A stretch of DNA of 64,000 bases, taken from NCBI RefSeq assembly GCF_000744095.1, contig NZ_JQLI01000008.1:1612001-1676000 (forward strand), written 5' to 3'. The notes beneath the pieces were generated by a model. It saw only the letters and a list, made by a program, of their open reading frames with translations, ran no database searches and was not told the origin of the DNA. This DNA comes from Cupriavidus necator A5-1 (lineage in GTDB: Bacteria; Pseudomonadota; Gammaproteobacteria; Burkholderiales; Burkholderiaceae). Of the stretch, positions 30,683-37,099 are shown piece after piece (positions within the stretch are counted from its first letter, which is position 1; every line of letters begins with the position of its first letter). Made by a program: the position numbers and the translations under genes.

Positions 30683-30943
30683 TCAAGCGCCATCGGTAAA
30701 CGTGTCACGCTTATCGATAGTTCTTGCGCCGTCGGAGAAGGCGTCACGCCTGTCCGAGATTCTGGCACCGTCCGTGTAGACATCGAACTTGCTTGTCTTT
30801 GCCCCATCACTGTATGGATCTGGCGTCCGCACCCCCATGGCGCCATCTGTGTAAACGTCGCGCGGACTGGTGGTCCCAGCCCATGCTGCCCCGGCGCACA
30901 ACGCGACCGTCGTCGCCCCCAGTACTAACAGTGTCTTGCTCAT
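30683..30943 (-). CDS. Small secreted protein with five DxYTDGA repeats
   Basis: The 86-residue product starts with a clear signal peptide (MSKTLLVLGATTVALCAGAA, cleavage probably after AWA at residue 23). The mature 63 residues are almost entirely five copies of a D-x-[YF]-[TS]-D-G-A motif: residues 29-35, 42-48, 54-60, 67-73 and 80-86, spaced 12-13 residues, the last forming the C-terminus. AGGGAGGTG precedes the ATG and a strong terminator follows the stop, so it is a self-contained gene. I do not know its function. The acidic DGA repeats could bind a metal or coat a surface; this is a guess. Confidence 0.75.
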   Translation of the reverse strand: MSKTLLVLGATTVALCAGAAWAGTTSPRDVYTDGAMGVRTPDPYSDGAKTSKFDVYTDGARISDRRDAFSDGARTIDKRDTFTDGA

Positions 30944-31295
30944 TTCCCACCTCCCTTCAGGTGGTAGTCGCCCCCGGCTGAAACAAAATTTGTCGTTCAA
31001 ATATAGATCGGTGGAAACCCTCGTCACTTCTGGTACATCGACAGTTTTGTCATGTGCGGCATCTGCGTAATGACTTTGCGGAATATCGGTTGCGCGAACG
31101 TCCGACCTGAAGAGTAGAAGTGTCGATACAAAGACAAGAGCCGGGCGAACCGGCGTGACGTGTGGGGTATCGATTACCAGGCACGGGATGCGAAGGCTTC
31201 CTCTTGCAACCGCCGGTGCACGGAGCCGACCGCCTCGAGCTGGCGGTCGGGGAGCAGCCGGCGCTGTTCAAGGTATCGAGCGTGCTGATGGGCCG
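30944..31295. other. Intergenic region between two small genes
   Basis: I see no supported gene here. On the minus strand a TATATT near 30998-31003 could be the -10 of the repeat-protein gene, with a weak GTGACG 16 bases before it. Confidence 0.4.
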
Positions 31296-31481
31296 TTAGA
31301 TCGAGGGCACGTGCAGTTGGCCATCGGGGCCTAGCACACGGCCGTCCGGCGTGGCGGGCAAATGGGTGACCTCCCACGCCAGAATTTGTTGCGGCGTGCG
31401 GTAGATCCCACCATGGATGGCGGACATAGCGGTGGCGTCGAGGGTGCGGCTGGGCAGGTCGCGGATGATCAGGGTGCTCAT
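31296..31481 (-). CDS. Double-glycine-leader peptide (bacteriocin-like precursor)
   Basis: This 61-residue product has the features of a double-glycine leader peptide. Gly24-Gly25 end the leader, with Leu14 (-12), Met19 (-7) and Ile22 (-4) at the classic hydrophobic positions (TLDATAMSAIHGG). The N-terminus MSTLIIRDLP resembles other betaproteobacterial GG-leader small proteins. Removing the leader leaves a 36-residue core without cysteine, containing PDGRVLGPDGQ as a short internal repeat. TTGGAGA precedes the start. Such peptides are normally cut and exported by peptidase-containing ABC transporters; none is in the window. Whether it is a bacteriocin, signal or something else is open. Confidence 0.65.
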   Translation of the reverse strand: MSTLIIRDLPSRTLDATAMSAIHGGIYRTPQQILAWEVTHLPATPDGRVLGPDGQLHVPSI

Positions 31482-31822
31482 GGTGGTTCTCCAACGGTTA
31501 GAGAGCGGGGGCGCTCGTACCGGAAAAAAGCAACGATCGTGCCTGTCGGGCGCAGGCGCAGCATTCTGCATGGAGTGAGGGCGGGCGTGATGCCAGCGGG
31601 GCCGCGGACGGTATGGAGTGTTGGGCTGCGCCGTACACCCGATCCACAAGGGATGGCGCCGGACCGACACCGGCGCCTGGCTTCGACCCATTCGCCGTTG
31701 GCGAAACCTGCTTTCGGAAAACCCGGTTTGCCTGGTCGCGCGATCGCTGGCATTGTTGGCAGCATGCCAGGCCCGTGATGCCTGGCCGCCACTAGCCTAA
31801 TCGGTTCCGGAGACCAGCGACC
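31482..31822. other. Intergenic region without a recognised gene
   Basis: The open frames here are not protein-like and no structured element stands out. It must contain the promoter of the GG-leader gene (minus) and of the CoA ester lyase gene (plus). Confidence 0.4.
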
Positions 31823-32716
31823 ATGCACGACAACCTGCCACAGCGCCTGCGCTCCCTTCTATTCGTTCCCGCGGACAGCGACCGCAAGCTGGCGGCATCG
31901 CTAAAGTCGGGGGCGGACGGGCTGGTGTTCGACCTCGAGGACGCCGTGCCGGAGCATGGCAAGGAAGACGCGCGGCGCAAGCTGGTGTCGTTCCTCGAGC
32001 AGAACCGCGCGTCGATGGAGCCGGCCTTGCTGGTGCGCGTCAACGGGCTGGCGTCAGGCCATATCCTGCGCGACCTCGCCGCCGTGATCCCGCACCGGCC
32101 AAACGCGATCGTGCTGCCGAAGTGCCGGAGCGTCGACGATGTGCACCGGCTCTGCGATTTCCTCGCAGCCTTCGAATGCGCGCTGTTGCCCGACAACTGG
32201 GAGGTCGCCATCATCGCCATGGCGACGGAATCCTCGGAAGGCGTGTTCGGCCTGTCGTCCTATCGCAATGCGCCAATGCGCCTGCGGGCGCTGATGTGGG
32301 GCGTGGACGATCTTGCCGCCGAGCTGGGCGCCTTCTCCTCGCATATCGGCAAGGAACTCACGGCACCGTTTTCCGTGGCGCGCACGATGTGCCTGCTGGC
32401 GGCCGCGCAGGCCGGCATCGATGCCATTGATGCAGTCAGTACCAGCCTGACAGACCCCGCGCAGATCGGGCAGGAAGCCGCGCAGGCGAAGCGCGACGGC
32501 TTTACGGCCAAGGCCGCCGCGCATCCTTCGCATATCGATGCCATCAATCAGGCTTTCATGCCGCAGGAGGAAGAGGTGCGTTGGGCCCGGCATGTCGTCG
32601 ACGCGTTCTCCAGGGTTGGCGCTTCGGGCGTGGCAAGGCTCGGCAATGCCATGATCGACCGGCCCCATTTGCGGCTGGCACACCGGATCCTGTGCCACGT
32701 GGACGGGGAGGACTGA
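31823..32716 (+). CDS. HpcH/HpaI-family CoA ester lyase (CitE-like)
   Basis: This 297-residue TIM-barrel protein resembles citrate lyase beta subunit and malyl-CoA lyases. The motifs RSLLFVPADSDRKL, ADGLVFDLEDAVPE (metal-binding Glu/Asp) and RVNGL are typical, and the end AAAHPSHIDAINQAF is the family C-terminal lid. It would cleave or form a beta-hydroxyacyl-CoA. It converges with the maleylacetate reductase gene, and its place in the gamma-resorcylate pathway is not obvious. It may belong to a different small unit. Confidence 0.87.
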   Translation: MHDNLPQRLRSLLFVPADSDRKLAASLKSGADGLVFDLEDAVPEHGKEDARRKLVSFLEQNRASMEPALLVRVNGLASGHILRDLAAVIPHRPNAIVLPKCRSVDDVHRLCDFLAAFECALLPDNWEVAIIAMATESSEGVFGLSSYRNAPMRLRALMWGVDDLAAELGAFSSHIGKELTAPFSVARTMCLLAAAQAGIDAIDAVSTSLTDPAQIGQEAAQAKRDGFTAKAAAHPSHIDAINQAFMPQEEEVRWARHVVDAFSRVGASGVARLGNAMIDRPHLRLAHRILCHVDGED

Positions 32717-33832
32717 TTCGGTTGGATCAGCCCCCCCCGGATCGTCCCAATCTGCTCCATTAGCCCGTTCGGCCGCTTCCGGCGGCTCGCCCCGGTAGGC
32801 CCGCTGCAGCAGCCCGAGTAGCGCCTCACGCTCCAGCGGCGCCGGATTCCAGTAAGGATTGGTGAGCGCGATATCCGCGGCTACCGGAATGTCCGACTCC
32901 CGGAAGCCGATGTCGCGAAGCGCGGTTGGCGCGCCATTGTTCCGCGCGAGTTCAAAGAGCGCGCGCGGACCGTCTTCCGCATCGAACGCTCGCCCGAGGA
33001 CCTGCATCGCCCGGGGCGTGCTCTTGCGGTTGTAGGCGAGCGCATGCGGCAGCACGATGGTGTGGGTCTCGGCATGGGGCAGGTTGAAGGTGCCGCCGAG
33101 GGTGTGGCACAGCTTGTGGTGCAAGGCCATGCCGACGTGGCCGAGGGTCGTGCCGCACAGCCAGGCTCCGTACAGGGCATCCGAGCGCGCCTGCATGTCG
33201 GCCGCATCCGAGCGGATGGCGGGAATGGCCCGCGCCAGCGCCCGGATGCCGAGTTCGGCGAACGTCTCCATGATGGGATTGCCGTCCCTGGCGTATAGCG
33301 CCTCGGCCGCGTGGGCGATCGCGTTAATTCCGCTGGTTACCGAAATGCCGACCGGAAGGCCCCGGGTCAGCTCCGGATCGTAGATGACCGTGCGCGGCAG
33401 CACGCGCGGATCTGAGCCCGTGCGTTTGCGTCCTTCGTCGGTGATGCCGTAGATCGGCGTCATTTCCGAGCCGGCGTAGGTGGTCGGCACAGCCACGACC
33501 GGCAGCCCGGTGTCGAGCGCGATGGCTTTGGCCAGGCCGATCGTGGAGCCGCCGCCGGTGGCGACCAGGCAGTCCGCGCCGGTGTCCTTTGCGGCTTTGC
33601 TCGCCTGTGCAGCGATGCCCGCCGGCACGTGCATCTGGGCCTGGTCGAAGATGCCTGCGGCAGTATCGCCGAGCAGGTCTGCCGCGTCGTGCGCGAGATC
33701 GATCTGGTTTGGTGTCGACAGGAACAGTGCCCGCCGGCAACCCAGGCGGTCGATCTCGGCGGGAAGTTGGGCAAATGCGCCGGCGCCGAACACGACGCGT
33801 GCCGGGTTGGCCTGGTAGACGAAGGGATTCAT
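32054..33832 (-). CDS. graC: Maleylacetate reductase with a missing stop (run-on frame)
   Basis: The first 360 or so residues are a maleylacetate reductase, the iron-alcohol-dehydrogenase-type enzyme that reduces maleylacetate to 3-oxoadipate. Signs are VVFGAGAFAQLP, ATGGGSTIGLAKAIAL, PTTYAGSEMTPIYG, HKLCHTLGG and LPHAETHTIVLPHA. The family ends near residue 355-365, but this frame has no stop there and runs another 220 codons antisense through the CoA ester lyase gene (663 bases of overlap). At the expected end lies a C8 tract (32731-32738); adding one base would bring TGA into frame at 32729-32727, giving a normal 368-residue protein. A sequencing slip, true frameshift or phase switch could explain it. 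The start overlaps the dioxygenase gene by four bases. Confidence 0.8.
   Translation of the reverse strand: MNPFVYQANPARVVFGAGAFAQLPAEIDRLGCRRALFLSTPNQIDLAHDAADLLGDTAAGIFDQAQMHVPAGIAAQASKAAKDTGADCLVATGGGSTIGLAKAIALDTGLPVVAVPTTYAGSEMTPIYGITDEGRKRTGSDPRVLPRTVIYDPELTRGLPVGISVTSGINAIAHAAEALYARDGNPIMETFAELGIRALARAIPAIRSDAADMQARSDALYGAWLCGTTLGHVGMALHHKLCHTLGGTFNLPHAETHTIVLPHALAYNRKSTPRAMQVLGRAFDAEDGPRALFELARNNGAPTALRDIGFRESDIPVAADIALTNPYWNPAPLEREALLGLLQRAYRGEPPEAAERANGADWDDPGGADPTESVLPVHVAQDPVCQPQMGPVDHGIAEPCHARSANPGERVDDMPGPTHLFLLRHESLIDGIDMRRMRGGLGRKAVALRLRGFLPDLRGVCQAGTDCINGIDAGLRGRQQAHRARHGKRCREFLADMRGEGAQLGGKIVHAPHQRPQAHWRIAIGRQAEHAFRGFRRHGDDGDLPVVGQQRAFEGCEEIAEPVHIVDAPALRQHDRVWPVRDHGGEVAQDMA
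32731..32738. repeat. C8 homopolymer at the maleylacetate reductase C-terminus
   Basis: Eight cytosines (G8 on the coding strand) sit about 100 codons after the last conserved block. A tract of nine would end the frame at once (GGC TGA), 11 bases clear of the convergent lyase gene. This marks the likely site of the frame error. Confidence 0.7.
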
Positions 33833-34740
33833 GCGGATTCCTTCCTTTCCTCCTGCACCGCTGCTGGTGGCGCTGTTGCTGCGGGCTTCGGGTTCAGCAC
33901 GAAATCGTGGTGCAGCGTGTAATAGGGCTGCTCCATCCGGATGCCGTCCGGTGCGATGCCGGGCGGGTGCGCGGTCCAGTCGGCGATCAGCGTCGAGCGC
34001 ACGCCGAACACCGCATCGGAGTCGAGATAGTCATCTTCATTGCGGAAGATGTGTGTGATCAGCCGTTCGTATCCTCCCGCCTCGATCTTGAAATGAAGGT
34101 GGGCGGGGCGCCACGGATGCCGCCCGAGGGCATCGAGCATCCTGCCGACCGGCCCGTCATGCGGAATGGGGTAGGGCACCGCCAGGATCGAGCGGAAGTG
34201 GAACTTGCCTTCAGCATCGGTCCGCAGCCGCGCCCGTGCCTGATGATCCGTCGCGTCGGGACGCTGGACATCGTAAAGGCCTTCGTCATCGGACTGCCAG
34301 ACGGCCAACTCCGCGCCGGCCACGGGTTTGCCGTCAAGCCCATGCACGCTGCCGGACACGAAGCACGGAATGCCGTGCGCGCCGTTTGCAATATCGTCGC
34401 CATTGTCGACCAGGGGCGAGTCCTCGACATAGAACGGGCCAAACACGGTGGCCTCTGTGCACCCTTGCGGTTTGCGGTTGTTCAGGGCCGTGACCAGCGT
34501 GGACAGTCCGAGGGTATCGGACAACAGGATGAATTCCTGCCGCTTGTCGTCGCACATCTGCCCGGTTTCCGTCAGGAAGCGGATGCCCTCGAACCATTCG
34601 TCTTCGGTCAGCCTGACTTCGCGTGCGAACTCGTGGAGGTGGCGAACCAGGCTTTCCATGATGGTCACCAACCTCGCGTTGCCAGTGCGGTTGGCCTCGA
34701 TCACCGCTTGCGTGATGCTGAATTCGTCGATGTCTCTCAT
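33829..34740 (-). CDS. graB: Hydroxyquinol 1,2-dioxygenase (intradiol)
   Basis: The 303-residue intradiol dioxygenase opens hydroxyquinol between its adjacent hydroxyls to give maleylacetate. The helical N-terminal linker domain is followed by the beta-sandwich with FGPFYVEDSPLVDNG, LAVWQSDDEGLYD (first Tyr ligand), ILAVPYPIPHDGPVG (second Tyr) and HPWRPAHLHFKI (the two His ligands), so the Fe(III) site is complete. The pairing with maleylacetate reductase, overlapping by four bases, favours hydroxyquinol over catechol. The long N-terminus also fits that subgroup. Confidence 0.9.
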   Translation of the reverse strand: MRDIDEFSITQAVIEANRTGNARLVTIMESLVRHLHEFAREVRLTEDEWFEGIRFLTETGQMCDDKRQEFILLSDTLGLSTLVTALNNRKPQGCTEATVFGPFYVEDSPLVDNGDDIANGAHGIPCFVSGSVHGLDGKPVAGAELAVWQSDDEGLYDVQRPDATDHQARARLRTDAEGKFHFRSILAVPYPIPHDGPVGRMLDALGRHPWRPAHLHFKIEAGGYERLITHIFRNEDDYLDSDAVFGVRSTLIADWTAHPPGIAPDGIRMEQPYYTLHHDFVLNPKPAATAPPAAVQEERKESA

Positions 34741-34800
34741 GTTCCGTGCATGGCCTGGGTTGGTGTCAGGCTGGCATCCGCCGGGGCGGATGCCAGGTGA

Positions 34801-35775
34801 CTACAGCTTGAACAGCTTGATCGCATTGGTGCGGCCGATCTTCTCGCGATCCGCCTCGCTGATGCTGGCACTATCGAACCATTTGGCCGCATGATCGATG
34901 TTCTCGAACGGCCAGTCCGTCGAGAACAGGATCCGGTCCGCGCCGATTTCCAGCATAGCGTCGATCAGCGTCTGGTTATGGAAGTTGCCGGACGTGGTCA
35001 GGTGGAAGTTCTGCTGGAAGTAGTGCCGGAAGGTCTTTTTGGCCGGATAGGTCTTGGGTGCCTTGACCCAGGCATTGCGGTTATCGATCCGCCACAGGCT
35101 GTAGGGCAGGCCTTCGCCAAGGTGACCCAGCACGATCTGGAGGGCGGGATGGCGATCGAACAGCCCCGACGCCATCAGCCGCAGCGCATGTACCGCCGTC
35201 TCCTGCCCGAATGCCCACGTCGGGCCCAGCAGCCACGGATGACCATCGTAGATCTGCGCCCATGATGCGATGGGATTGCGCGGGTGCAGGTAGAACGGCA
35301 CATCGAGCTGTTCAACCGCCGCCCAGAACGATGCGTATTGCGGCGCATCGTAGTACACGACATTCTCGGGTGTATCGATCTGGGAAAAGCCATTGACCAG
35401 CGCGCCGCGCATGCCGAGCTCATTGACGCAGCGGGTCAGCTCGGCGGTGGCGAAATCCGGATCCTGCAGCGGCAACGCGGCCAGCGCCTGGAAGCGGTCC
35501 GGGCGCCGCGAGACCTGCTCCGCCAGGAAGTCGTTGGCGCGCACCGCAAGTTCGCAGGCCTGCTTGCGATCCGGGATCGCCTGCACCGCGGGCGCGTTCA
35601 GCGAGAGCAGCATCATCTCCATGCCGTTCTCGTCCATTTGCCGAAGCCGGTCATCCTGGATATCGAGTAGGCGGTGGCTCAGCTCTTTCCAGTAGTCGCC
35701 GGGCACAAAGCCCGCGGAGTCGTTCAGCGTCTCGGGAATCGCAAAATGCTCTTCCAGTCCGATCTTTCCTTGCAT
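34801..35775 (-). CDS. graF: Gamma-resorcylate (2,6-dihydroxybenzoate) decarboxylase
   Basis: This 324-residue amidohydrolase-fold enzyme removes the carboxyl group of 2,6-dihydroxybenzoate to form resorcinol. The N-terminus MQGKIGLEEHFAIPET matches characterised gamma-resorcylate decarboxylases closely, placing the metal ligands at Glu8 and His10. Further blocks are FYLHPRNP (His ligand), GHPWLLGPTWAF, LGHLGEGLPY and ILFSTDWPFEN (Asp ligand). The ATG at 35775 gives the usual length; the longer frame upstream was rejected. It is the most specific marker that the cluster serves gamma-resorcylate. Confidence 0.93.
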   Translation of the reverse strand: MQGKIGLEEHFAIPETLNDSAGFVPGDYWKELSHRLLDIQDDRLRQMDENGMEMMLLSLNAPAVQAIPDRKQACELAVRANDFLAEQVSRRPDRFQALAALPLQDPDFATAELTRCVNELGMRGALVNGFSQIDTPENVVYYDAPQYASFWAAVEQLDVPFYLHPRNPIASWAQIYDGHPWLLGPTWAFGQETAVHALRLMASGLFDRHPALQIVLGHLGEGLPYSLWRIDNRNAWVKAPKTYPAKKTFRHYFQQNFHLTTSGNFHNQTLIDAMLEIGADRILFSTDWPFENIDHAAKWFDSASISEADREKIGRTNAIKLFKL

Positions 35776-35830
35776 GATGGTCCTTGTTTTCTGTCTGTGT
35801 GAAACGCGCGTATGGGCGGATAGGGCGCGC

Positions 35831-37099
35831 TCAATACTGTCCCTTGGGTTCCAGCCCAAGCAGATGTTGTCCGGCCATGGACGACACCGCATCCCAGTTC
35901 AGGCTGATGTGCTTAGCGATGGCATTACCGTCCCGCCACAGCCGCTGGATGGGCTGTGACAGCGCGAGGCCGTTGCCGCCGATGTTGTCGAAGATCGCAT
36001 TGATGGCGTCGCGGGAAAGCCGCGCCGCAAAGGCATGGTCCAGGCGGTTGCGGATCCGGGTATCGACATCGATCGCCTTGCCCGCCATGGCGTGCGTCTC
36101 GACCTCGGCGATGTCGCGGTAGATCAGCAGGCGCGCGGCATCGACCATCGCGGAAGCTTCCGCCACCCTGGACTGCACCGGGAAGAACTCGGCCAGGCGG
36201 CTGCCGCCGCCGGCGACGGCGCCCCGCGTGACGCGCGAGCCCGCCATCGCCAGGAACTCGTCGAGCGCTCCCTGTGCGGCGCCGAGAATGGGCGAGACCA
36301 GGCACACCGGCAATGCCGACAGGAAGGGGATGCGATAGATCGGGTTGGTGTTCAGCGCCGCACCGGGCGGGAGGTTGGACGACGCCTGCGCAAAGGTGAG
36401 CTTGCGATACGCGGGCACGAACGTCGGCGTCTTGATGTCGATGGCCTTGGAGCCGGTTCCCGCCTGGCCGGCGGTGAACCAGTCGTCATGCACGGACCAT
36501 TGCTCGCGCGGAACGAGAAGGAAGCCCGCGTGCGGCGTCGGCGTCTCGCCATCCGGCGCAAACTGCACGCCGATCATCGCCCATTGGGAGTTGTCGATAT
36601 TGGATGCCCAATGCCACCGGCCGGAGACGACGTAGCCGCCCTCTACGGCTTCGGCCTTGATGGTGGGGGCGTACGAACCGCAGACGATGGCGTCGGGATT
36701 CAGCTCCCACACATCGCGCTGTGCCTGGGCGGGGAAGGTCCCGATGAGCCACTGATGAACACTGCCCAATGAGCATCCCCATGCCGACGACGGACAACCC
36801 CGGCCGAGCTCGCTGATGATGTCGACAAAGGCCGAGAAGCCGAACTCATAGCCGCCGAACTGCGCCGGTTGCATCAGTCGGAAGAAGCCTGCATCGCGAA
36901 ACAGCGCCGTCGCCTCTTCGGACACGCGGCGGGACTCTTCCGTCTGCTGCGCATGGGGCTTCAGGAAGCCCTCTGAGATCTCCCTGGCGCATGCCACCAG
37001 CGTCGATAGTTCAGGCGCACCCGCAACTGGCGAGTGCCTGCCCGGGGCGCGCACAGGGTCCGCCCCAGTGGTCGGGATGGGTGTGGAGGAATGATTCAT
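35831..37099 (-). CDS. graA: Flavin-dependent resorcinol hydroxylase, oxygenase component
   Basis: The 422-residue protein has the acyl-CoA-dehydrogenase-like fold of two-component flavin monooxygenases (HpaB C2/HsaA group) that hydroxylate phenols with reduced flavin from a partner. Visible blocks are FRLMQPAQFGGYEFGFSAFV, SSAWGCSLGSVHQW, VVSGRWHWASNIDNSQW and a helical C-terminal bundle ending HAFAARLSRDAINAIFDNIGGNG. It opens the operon graA-graF-graB-graC. The partner reductase lies across the marR gene. Hydroxylation of resorcinol to hydroxyquinol follows from the neighbours; an acyl-CoA dehydrogenase role is unlikely because the substrate helix and Glu base are not evident. Confidence 0.85.
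   Translation of the reverse strand: MNHSSTPIPTTGADPVRAPGRHSPVAGAPELSTLVACAREISEGFLKPHAQQTEESRRVSEEATALFRDAGFFRLMQPAQFGGYEFGFSAFVDIISELGRGCPSSAWGCSLGSVHQWLIGTFPAQAQRDVWELNPDAIVCGSYAPTIKAEAVEGGYVVSGRWHWASNIDNSQWAMIGVQFAPDGETPTPHAGFLLVPREQWSVHDDWFTAGQAGTGSKAIDIKTPTFVPAYRKLTFAQASSNLPPGAALNTNPIYRIPFLSALPVCLVSPILGAAQGALDEFLAMAGSRVTRGAVAGGGSRLAEFFPVQSRVAEASAMVDAARLLIYRDIAEVETHAMAGKAIDVDTRIRNRLDHAFAARLSRDAINAIFDNIGGNGLALSQPIQRLWRDGNAIAKHISLNWDAVSSMAGQHLLGLEPKGQY

Follow-up and report, generated by a model that had tools for sequence, protein, structure and literature searches.

Double-glycine (GG) precursors, C39 peptidase exporters and HetC-like transporters are already known. The window analysed here, a stretch of 64,000 nucleotides (nt) from the genome of Cupriavidus necator A5-1, holds a small gene at 31296-31481 on the minus strand that encodes such a GG precursor, and its nearest worked-out parallel is EbfG1-4 with the ATP-binding cassette (ABC) transporter PteB of Synechococcus elongatus (comparisons with published systems follow the available parts of the cited texts). 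EbfG1-4 are produced from one operon and enable biofilm formation, EbfG1-3 form amyloid, and efficient secretion requires the peptidase cysteine of PteB, whose domain order has been likened to that of HetC (PMC4997328, PMC9981879). The likeness lies in the small GG proteins, the HetC-like peptidase exporter and mature parts that lack functionally characterized homologs. The systems differ in that the EbfG genes form an operon, that the window core is not evidently related to EbfG (no direct comparison was made), and that the available parts of those two reports make no mention of sigma-54 control.

HetC of Nostoc PCC 7120 has an N-terminal cyclic nucleotide-binding (cNMP) domain reported to bind ppGpp (guanosine tetraphosphate), followed by C39 and ABC transporter domains, and its substrate was not identified in the accessible text (PMC10986499). 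The candidate exporter described below, P0005, has the same design but carries two cNMP matches and comes with a clear family of candidate substrates. Cyanobacterial bacteriocin clusters also combine a long-type C39 transporter, a rotamase (SurA), HlyD and GG precursors, and 121 of 290 cyanobacterial precursors were assigned to NHLP or N11P (PMC3140520). Unlike these, the present peptides fall outside NHLP/N11P and have a different leader consensus, and sigma-54 boxes and genes for FHA and PP2C proteins are features of the system here. A literature search at the level of titles and the first part of abstracts, which did not cover the likeliest earlier listing (Dirix 2004), found nothing on these Burkholderiaceae peptides or their exporter, and no case of scattered leader genes that share a sigma-54 box and a palindrome and are tied to an exporter operon encoding a sigma-54 activator. 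Three further papers (PMC3262810, PMC13174018 and PMC11722255) concern other systems, judging by their available text.

We conclude that the window gene probably encodes a secreted peptide precursor of a dispersed sigma-54 regulon that is served by one trans-acting exporter 1.97 Mb away. It would escape any search that relies on the peptide gene being clustered with exporter and immunity genes.

The precursor gene, its leader family and its conservation

The features on which the analysis rests are as follows.

31296-31481, minus strand: gene of the 61-residue double-glycine precursor, stop codon included (translation, leave-out leader profile, orthologs, and the ratio of nonsynonymous to synonymous substitution rates, dN/dS)
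31407-31481, minus strand: 25-residue leader, MSTLIIRDLPSRTLDATAMSAIHGG (leader alignment)
31299-31406, minus strand: 36-residue core, IYRTPQQILAWEVTHLPATPDGRVLGPDGQLHVPSI, with predicted release after GG and a calculated mass of 3976.5 Da if unmodified
31489-31492, minus strand: GGAG ribosome-binding site, 7 nt from the ATG (sequence)
31529-31544, minus strand: sigma-54 type -24/-12 box AGGCACG-ATCG-TTGCT, beginning 63 nt upstream of the ATG, score 19 of 20
31619-31637, minus strand: palindrome TGTACG-GCGCAGC-CCAACA, 10 of 12 positions of TGTTGG-N7-CCAACA, proposed activator site

The initial annotation had given the coordinates of the gene exactly and left out its strand, which is minus. Upstream, the frame stays open as far as a second ATG at 31691; the start was placed at 31481 and not at 31691 because of the orthologs, the ribosome-binding site and the promoter. 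GG leaders of C39 substrates have hydrophobic residues at -4, -7 and -12, and the spacing that had been called ideal is indeed present, with I at -4, M at -7 and L at -12. The translation likewise confirms the 36-residue core after the GG. It is slightly acidic (charge -1.1) and contains no cysteine, and AlphaFold on three sequences gave confidence values too low for interpretation (mean predicted local distance difference test score, pLDDT, 59.3; predicted template modelling score, pTM, 0.25). The PDG repeat that had been singled out in the core did not hold up as a feature: an alignment of eight sequences keeps only G47, D53 and G54 of both motifs invariant, and we give the repeat no weight because it is not conserved.

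A leader profile was built from 12 leaders, with the window peptide and its orthologs excluded. Run against all six frames of the window, it found the peptide gene at E = 8.5e-12, and the second-best match had E = 1. Across 17 aligned leaders, L9, D15, G24 and G25 are invariant. The same leader type precedes several unrelated cores, both in the own genome and in relatives, so that the further peptides for which a search had been proposed do exist. In the own genome, the other leader genes are a four-copy tandem array and one gene on contig C1. The array (C8:3566978-3568225; L009 10978-12225) encodes four near-identical leader peptides with glycine-rich cores at a 328-bp period, and its sigma-54 boxes score 19 before the first copy and 16 before each of the others.

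The Pfam and NCBIfam models gave no match to the window peptide at E values up to 10, and eight related leader peptides gave only sub-cut-off matches, to families other than NHLP/Nif11; by these curated models the peptides do not belong to the NHLP or Nif11 precursor families. A stricter GG leader consensus, M(R/K)ELX3E(I/L)X2(I/V)XG(G/A) (quoted in PMC3140520), is matched only in part, the window peptide having no E at -8 or -13 and M instead of I/L at -7. A tblastn search of a plasmid collection gave zero matches at E 0.01.

The full-length gene was found in 8 of 60 genomes of the genus, the own genome included, with identities to the window peptide of 95% (G035), 85% (G026), 84% (G025 and G033), 83% (G019), 60% (G021) and 57% (G056). 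Two more full-length copies lie outside the genus (G226 and G344), which makes ten copies in three genera; those of the two other genera have 22-23 of the 36 core residues in common with the window peptide. Against the four orthologs with 83-85% identity (G026, G025, G033 and G019), dN/dS is 0.10-0.12, with 0.47-0.52 synonymous and 0.08-0.09 nonsynonymous differences per site, and leader and core are both constrained; against G035 it is 0.17. A leaderless remnant of the gene in G003 (L027) was excluded from the dN/dS calculation, and matches without leader coverage (G022:C22, G083, G091, G068, G052 and G032) were left aside. Three named contigs match the protein, two from Cupriavidus and the third from a gammaproteobacterial metagenome-assembled genome (MAG). 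Two core-only matches, L029 (G072) and L051 (the gammaproteobacterial MAG), were dropped as unrelated frames, the MAG match having arisen by chance.

A distant candidate exporter and its co-occurrence with the leaders

The window contains no peptidase-containing ABC transporter, as the initial annotation had stated: the C39 domain is absent from it, and all five C39 matches of the genome, four of them above the family cut-off, lie elsewhere. The annotation had also named the lack of any C39-type transporter in the genome as an outcome that would refute it, and what the search found was the HetC-like P0005. Its gene, which gives the best C39 match, occupies C8:3609106-3612216 at a distance of 1.97 Mb from the peptide gene. 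The protein is 1036 residues long, with two cNMP-binding matches and with C39, ABC_membrane and ABC_tran in Pfam, and so has the long-type layout of HetC and PteB, in which an N-terminal extension with cNMP is followed by C39, ABC membrane and ATPase domains. In its C39 domain, the segments with DCG, H and DP, where we take the catalytic residues to be located, can be aligned with those of peptidase-containing exporters of known structure.

HlyD and rotamase (peptidyl-prolyl isomerase) genes adjoin the P0005 gene, as in cyanobacterial groups I, II and VI in the available part of PMC3140520, and a 4-nt overlap joins the exporter gene to that of a sigma-54 activator (P0006). In nearby genes Pfam identifies a PP2C phosphatase, a protein kinase, an outer-membrane efflux protein, a Mutator-family transposase, DUF4399, a sulfatase-modifying-factor domain and two FHA domains. 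Of the leader genes close to the exporter in the own genome, three are broken (C8:3606594-3625987; L016, L010), one being frameshifted after a degenerate leader, another frameshifted and the third truncated near the Mutator-family transposase gene. The reading frame of the exporter looks intact, as do one leader gene close to it and those farther off (window, four-copy array and C1), and the remote peptides may keep the exporter in the genome.

Leader and exporter occur together. A close exporter ortholog (at least 82% identical across the N-terminal 470 residues or the greater part of them) is present in 50 of the 60 genus genomes, and leaders are found in every one of these, with best E values of 1.7e-9 or lower; the other ten have no leader better than E 0.32. 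In 299 Burkholderiaceae genomes from 25 genera, both were found in 104, the leader only in 3, the exporter only in 0 and neither in 192 (Fisher p ~5e-78, ignoring shared ancestry). Among the three leader-only genomes, G357 has an exporter fragment, 65% identical and with two in-frame stop codons, and G260 and G290 have just weaker or partial ABC matches. The exporter remnant of G357 (contig C292, L173) shares its contig with a leader match at C292:101370. All ten genomes with a full-length window peptide have the exporter. Leader, promoter and co-occurrence together tie scattered genes to an exporter in about one third of the sampled Burkholderiaceae genomes (104/299).

A predicted sigma-54 promoter and a candidate activator site

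The GG-N10-GC spacing of a -24/-12 element is present upstream of the peptide gene. Its score is 19; among random 200-nt stretches taken from the window, 0.22% do as well and 8.5% attain 17. A box scoring 17-19 of 20 precedes all ten full-length copies, the own one included. More widely, 49 of 105 scored leader genes have a box of at least 17; by inspection, high scores belong mostly to the first gene of a tandem group, with the followers near background. In a second set, 22 of 23 loci score at least 17, the sole miss being the G003 remnant. No sigma-70 site lies ahead of the peptide gene according to a consensus scan covering 31000-31850. From the leader, exporter, co-occurrence and promoter results together we therefore regard the peptide as belonging to a scattered set that is apparently driven by sigma-54. 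The same results support the suggestion, made at the outset, that the peptide relies on a distant exporter, which remains a prediction from leader similarity, co-occurrence and a common promoter architecture. The other option named at the outset, an orphan signal, gains neither support nor contradiction from these data.

The candidate activator site was derived from the regions upstream of 51 non-redundant leader genes with a sigma-54 box, drawn from 97. The commonest spaced words upstream of these genes mostly fall in one palindrome, TGTTGG-N7-CCAACA, which has at least 10 of 12 matches in 43 of the 51 upstream regions versus 0.54% of shuffles; in the window, 31619-31637 is the sole site at this level. 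Because the motif came from the same gene set, it was re-derived from 28 genes of exporter-proximal peptide types, chosen by type and not by distance, and tested on the other 23. With the 7-nt spacer, 15 of the 23 held-out genes have the site, versus 0-3 of 23 with eleven other spacers. Distances from palindrome to box are often near 92, 127 and 161 nt, that is, about 34 nt apart, although other distances occur; such steps would be roughly whole helical turns.

Several results weigh against this reading. The three other C39 matches above the cut-off lie at C1:4345495, C1:2905695 and C1:2172718, two in short frames (302 and 267 residues) and the third in a 736-residue frame, which has a low C39 score (25.6 bits), reads by eye as an ABC transporter and is a possible alternative exporter. 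The co-occurrence counts for genus and family are uncorrected for phylogeny. At C8:3616800-3617700, where the exporter operon presumably begins, no sigma-54 box reaches a score of 16. The 15 held-out successes consist of 8 of 8 window-type genes, which are mutually related, and 7 of 15 others, and an analysis restricted to the 23 held-out regions does not rank the palindrome among its leading words. With at most one mismatch, the own genome has 16 palindromes versus 12 for a reversed control and thus shows no enrichment; 4 of the 16 lie beside leader genes and 1 inside the outer-membrane factor gene. That last site is the one exact palindrome of the own genome, and similar near-exporter sites occur in most relatives. 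The exact palindrome is found in 48 of the 60 genus genomes, but largely as a site near the exporter, and we did not use this count for the regulon because it is no independent support. Lastly, dN/dS is higher against the distant copies (0.57 for G021 and 0.33 for G056).

Genomic context, proposed mechanism and alternatives

Context was compared in eight genus genomes at the nucleotide level and with 11 window genes; the contexts of G226 and G344 lay outside this comparison. The block that aligns with the G019, G025 and G033 orthologs spans about -194 to +191 around the ATG, and between distinct genomic contexts conservation covers promoter and gene only. Only one of the seven other genus loci, that of G035, has the neighbours of the window gene. 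The loci of G019, G025, G033 and G026 have neighbours partly common to one another, and those of G021 and G056 have nothing in common beyond the peptide gene. No immunity gene or operon partner common to the contexts was found in these eight genomes, although a diverged small gene could escape such a comparison. This agrees with the earlier remark that the window holds no immunity gene, and the peptide gene appears as a stand-alone cassette.

In the mechanism that we propose, P0006 would bind the TGTTGG-N7-CCAACA sites and drive sigma-54 transcription of the leader genes, including that of the window. The leader would then dock on the C39 domain of P0005, which is predicted to cut the precursor after Gly-Gly, and the 36-residue core would leave the cell by way of P0005, HlyD and the outer-membrane factor. 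Once released, it would most likely act together with the regulon's other peptides in the matrix, at the cell surface or in cell-cell signalling. A HetC-like exporter from a proteobacterium, whose candidate substrates can be listed and for which a candidate activator is at hand, opens both the choice of substrates and the function of the cNMP domain to direct tests in soil bacteria.

An alternative is a peptide pheromone, in which a receptor would sense the released core as a report of density or kin. The stand-alone short gene, constrained core and regulated promoter suit such a function, as do the genes for a protein kinase, FHA and PP2C proteins that accompany the exporter. We nevertheless consider it rather unlikely, as no receptor gene was found travelling with the peptide gene in the contexts compared, and the full-length gene is present in only 8 of 60 genus genomes versus 50 with the exporter.

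A bacteriocin of the class II microcin type, exported by a distant peptidase-containing ABC transporter and with its immunity gene elsewhere or with inherent immunity, seems improbable. Class II microcins usually have a GG leader, a C39 exporter and HlyD, a design shared by the present system with its HlyD-type adaptor, and several leader peptides per genome would be in keeping with it. Colicin V and other class II microcins, however, have an adjacent immunity gene and an adjacent exporter; neither was found beside the window gene, and in the eight genus genomes compared no neighbouring gene, short of a diverged small one, is common to its distinct contexts. Because the core is slightly acidic, cysteine-free and constrained, being kept across genera, and no linked immunity gene was found, an extracellular role in matrix, surface or signalling looks likelier on argument than that of a bacteriocin.

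It is very unlikely that the gene is a decaying relic, stranded after the system lost its function. The three broken leader genes near the exporter and the leaderless remnant in G003 could be taken as signs of decay, but the exporter frame is open, the leader, core, ribosome-binding site and promoter of the window gene are intact, and dN/dS against four orthologs is low. A chance open reading frame, of which GC-rich DNA yields many (109 frames of at least 40 residues overlap one 11-kb stretch), is ruled out by the leave-out profile match, dN/dS and the full-length copies in three genera, and the small gene is real.

Beyond the regulon reading itself, we tentatively put forward, as a possibility somewhat short of even, a secretion regulon spread across the Burkholderiaceae. 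In it a HetC-like exporter, gated by kinase, phosphatase and FHA proteins and coupled to sigma-54, would serve scattered, fast-turning-over peptides, some of them N/Q-rich (rich in asparagine and glutamine) and possibly self-assembling, with promoter-plus-peptide cassettes moved around the genome; the window peptide would be a conserved matrix or signal cassette. The exporter-proximal peptide types are N/Q-rich (two examples have 19 and 23%); this is compatible with a biofilm or amyloid use like that of EbfG, without proving it.

One further feature lies downstream of the gene.

31140-31154, minus strand: weak terminator-like hairpin (consensus scan)

The peptide gene may be monocistronic, but we regard the hairpin as weak evidence because one was found downstream versus a mean of 0.6 in shuffles. 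Farther downstream, 30683-30943 (minus strand) encodes a small protein with a likely signal peptide, DVYTDGA / DAFSDGA repeats and no Pfam match. Relatives of this protein, about 45% identical, lie about 8 kb from the peptide gene in G026 and G021; as a partner of the peptide it was rejected as too distant and found at too few loci (two of the seven others). On the upstream side, 32881-37099 (minus strand) contains in a row genes for an iron-containing alcohol dehydrogenase, an intradiol dioxygenase, an amidohydrolase and an acyl-CoA dehydrogenase (Pfam), perhaps an aromatic degradation cluster, presumably of the resorcylate type.
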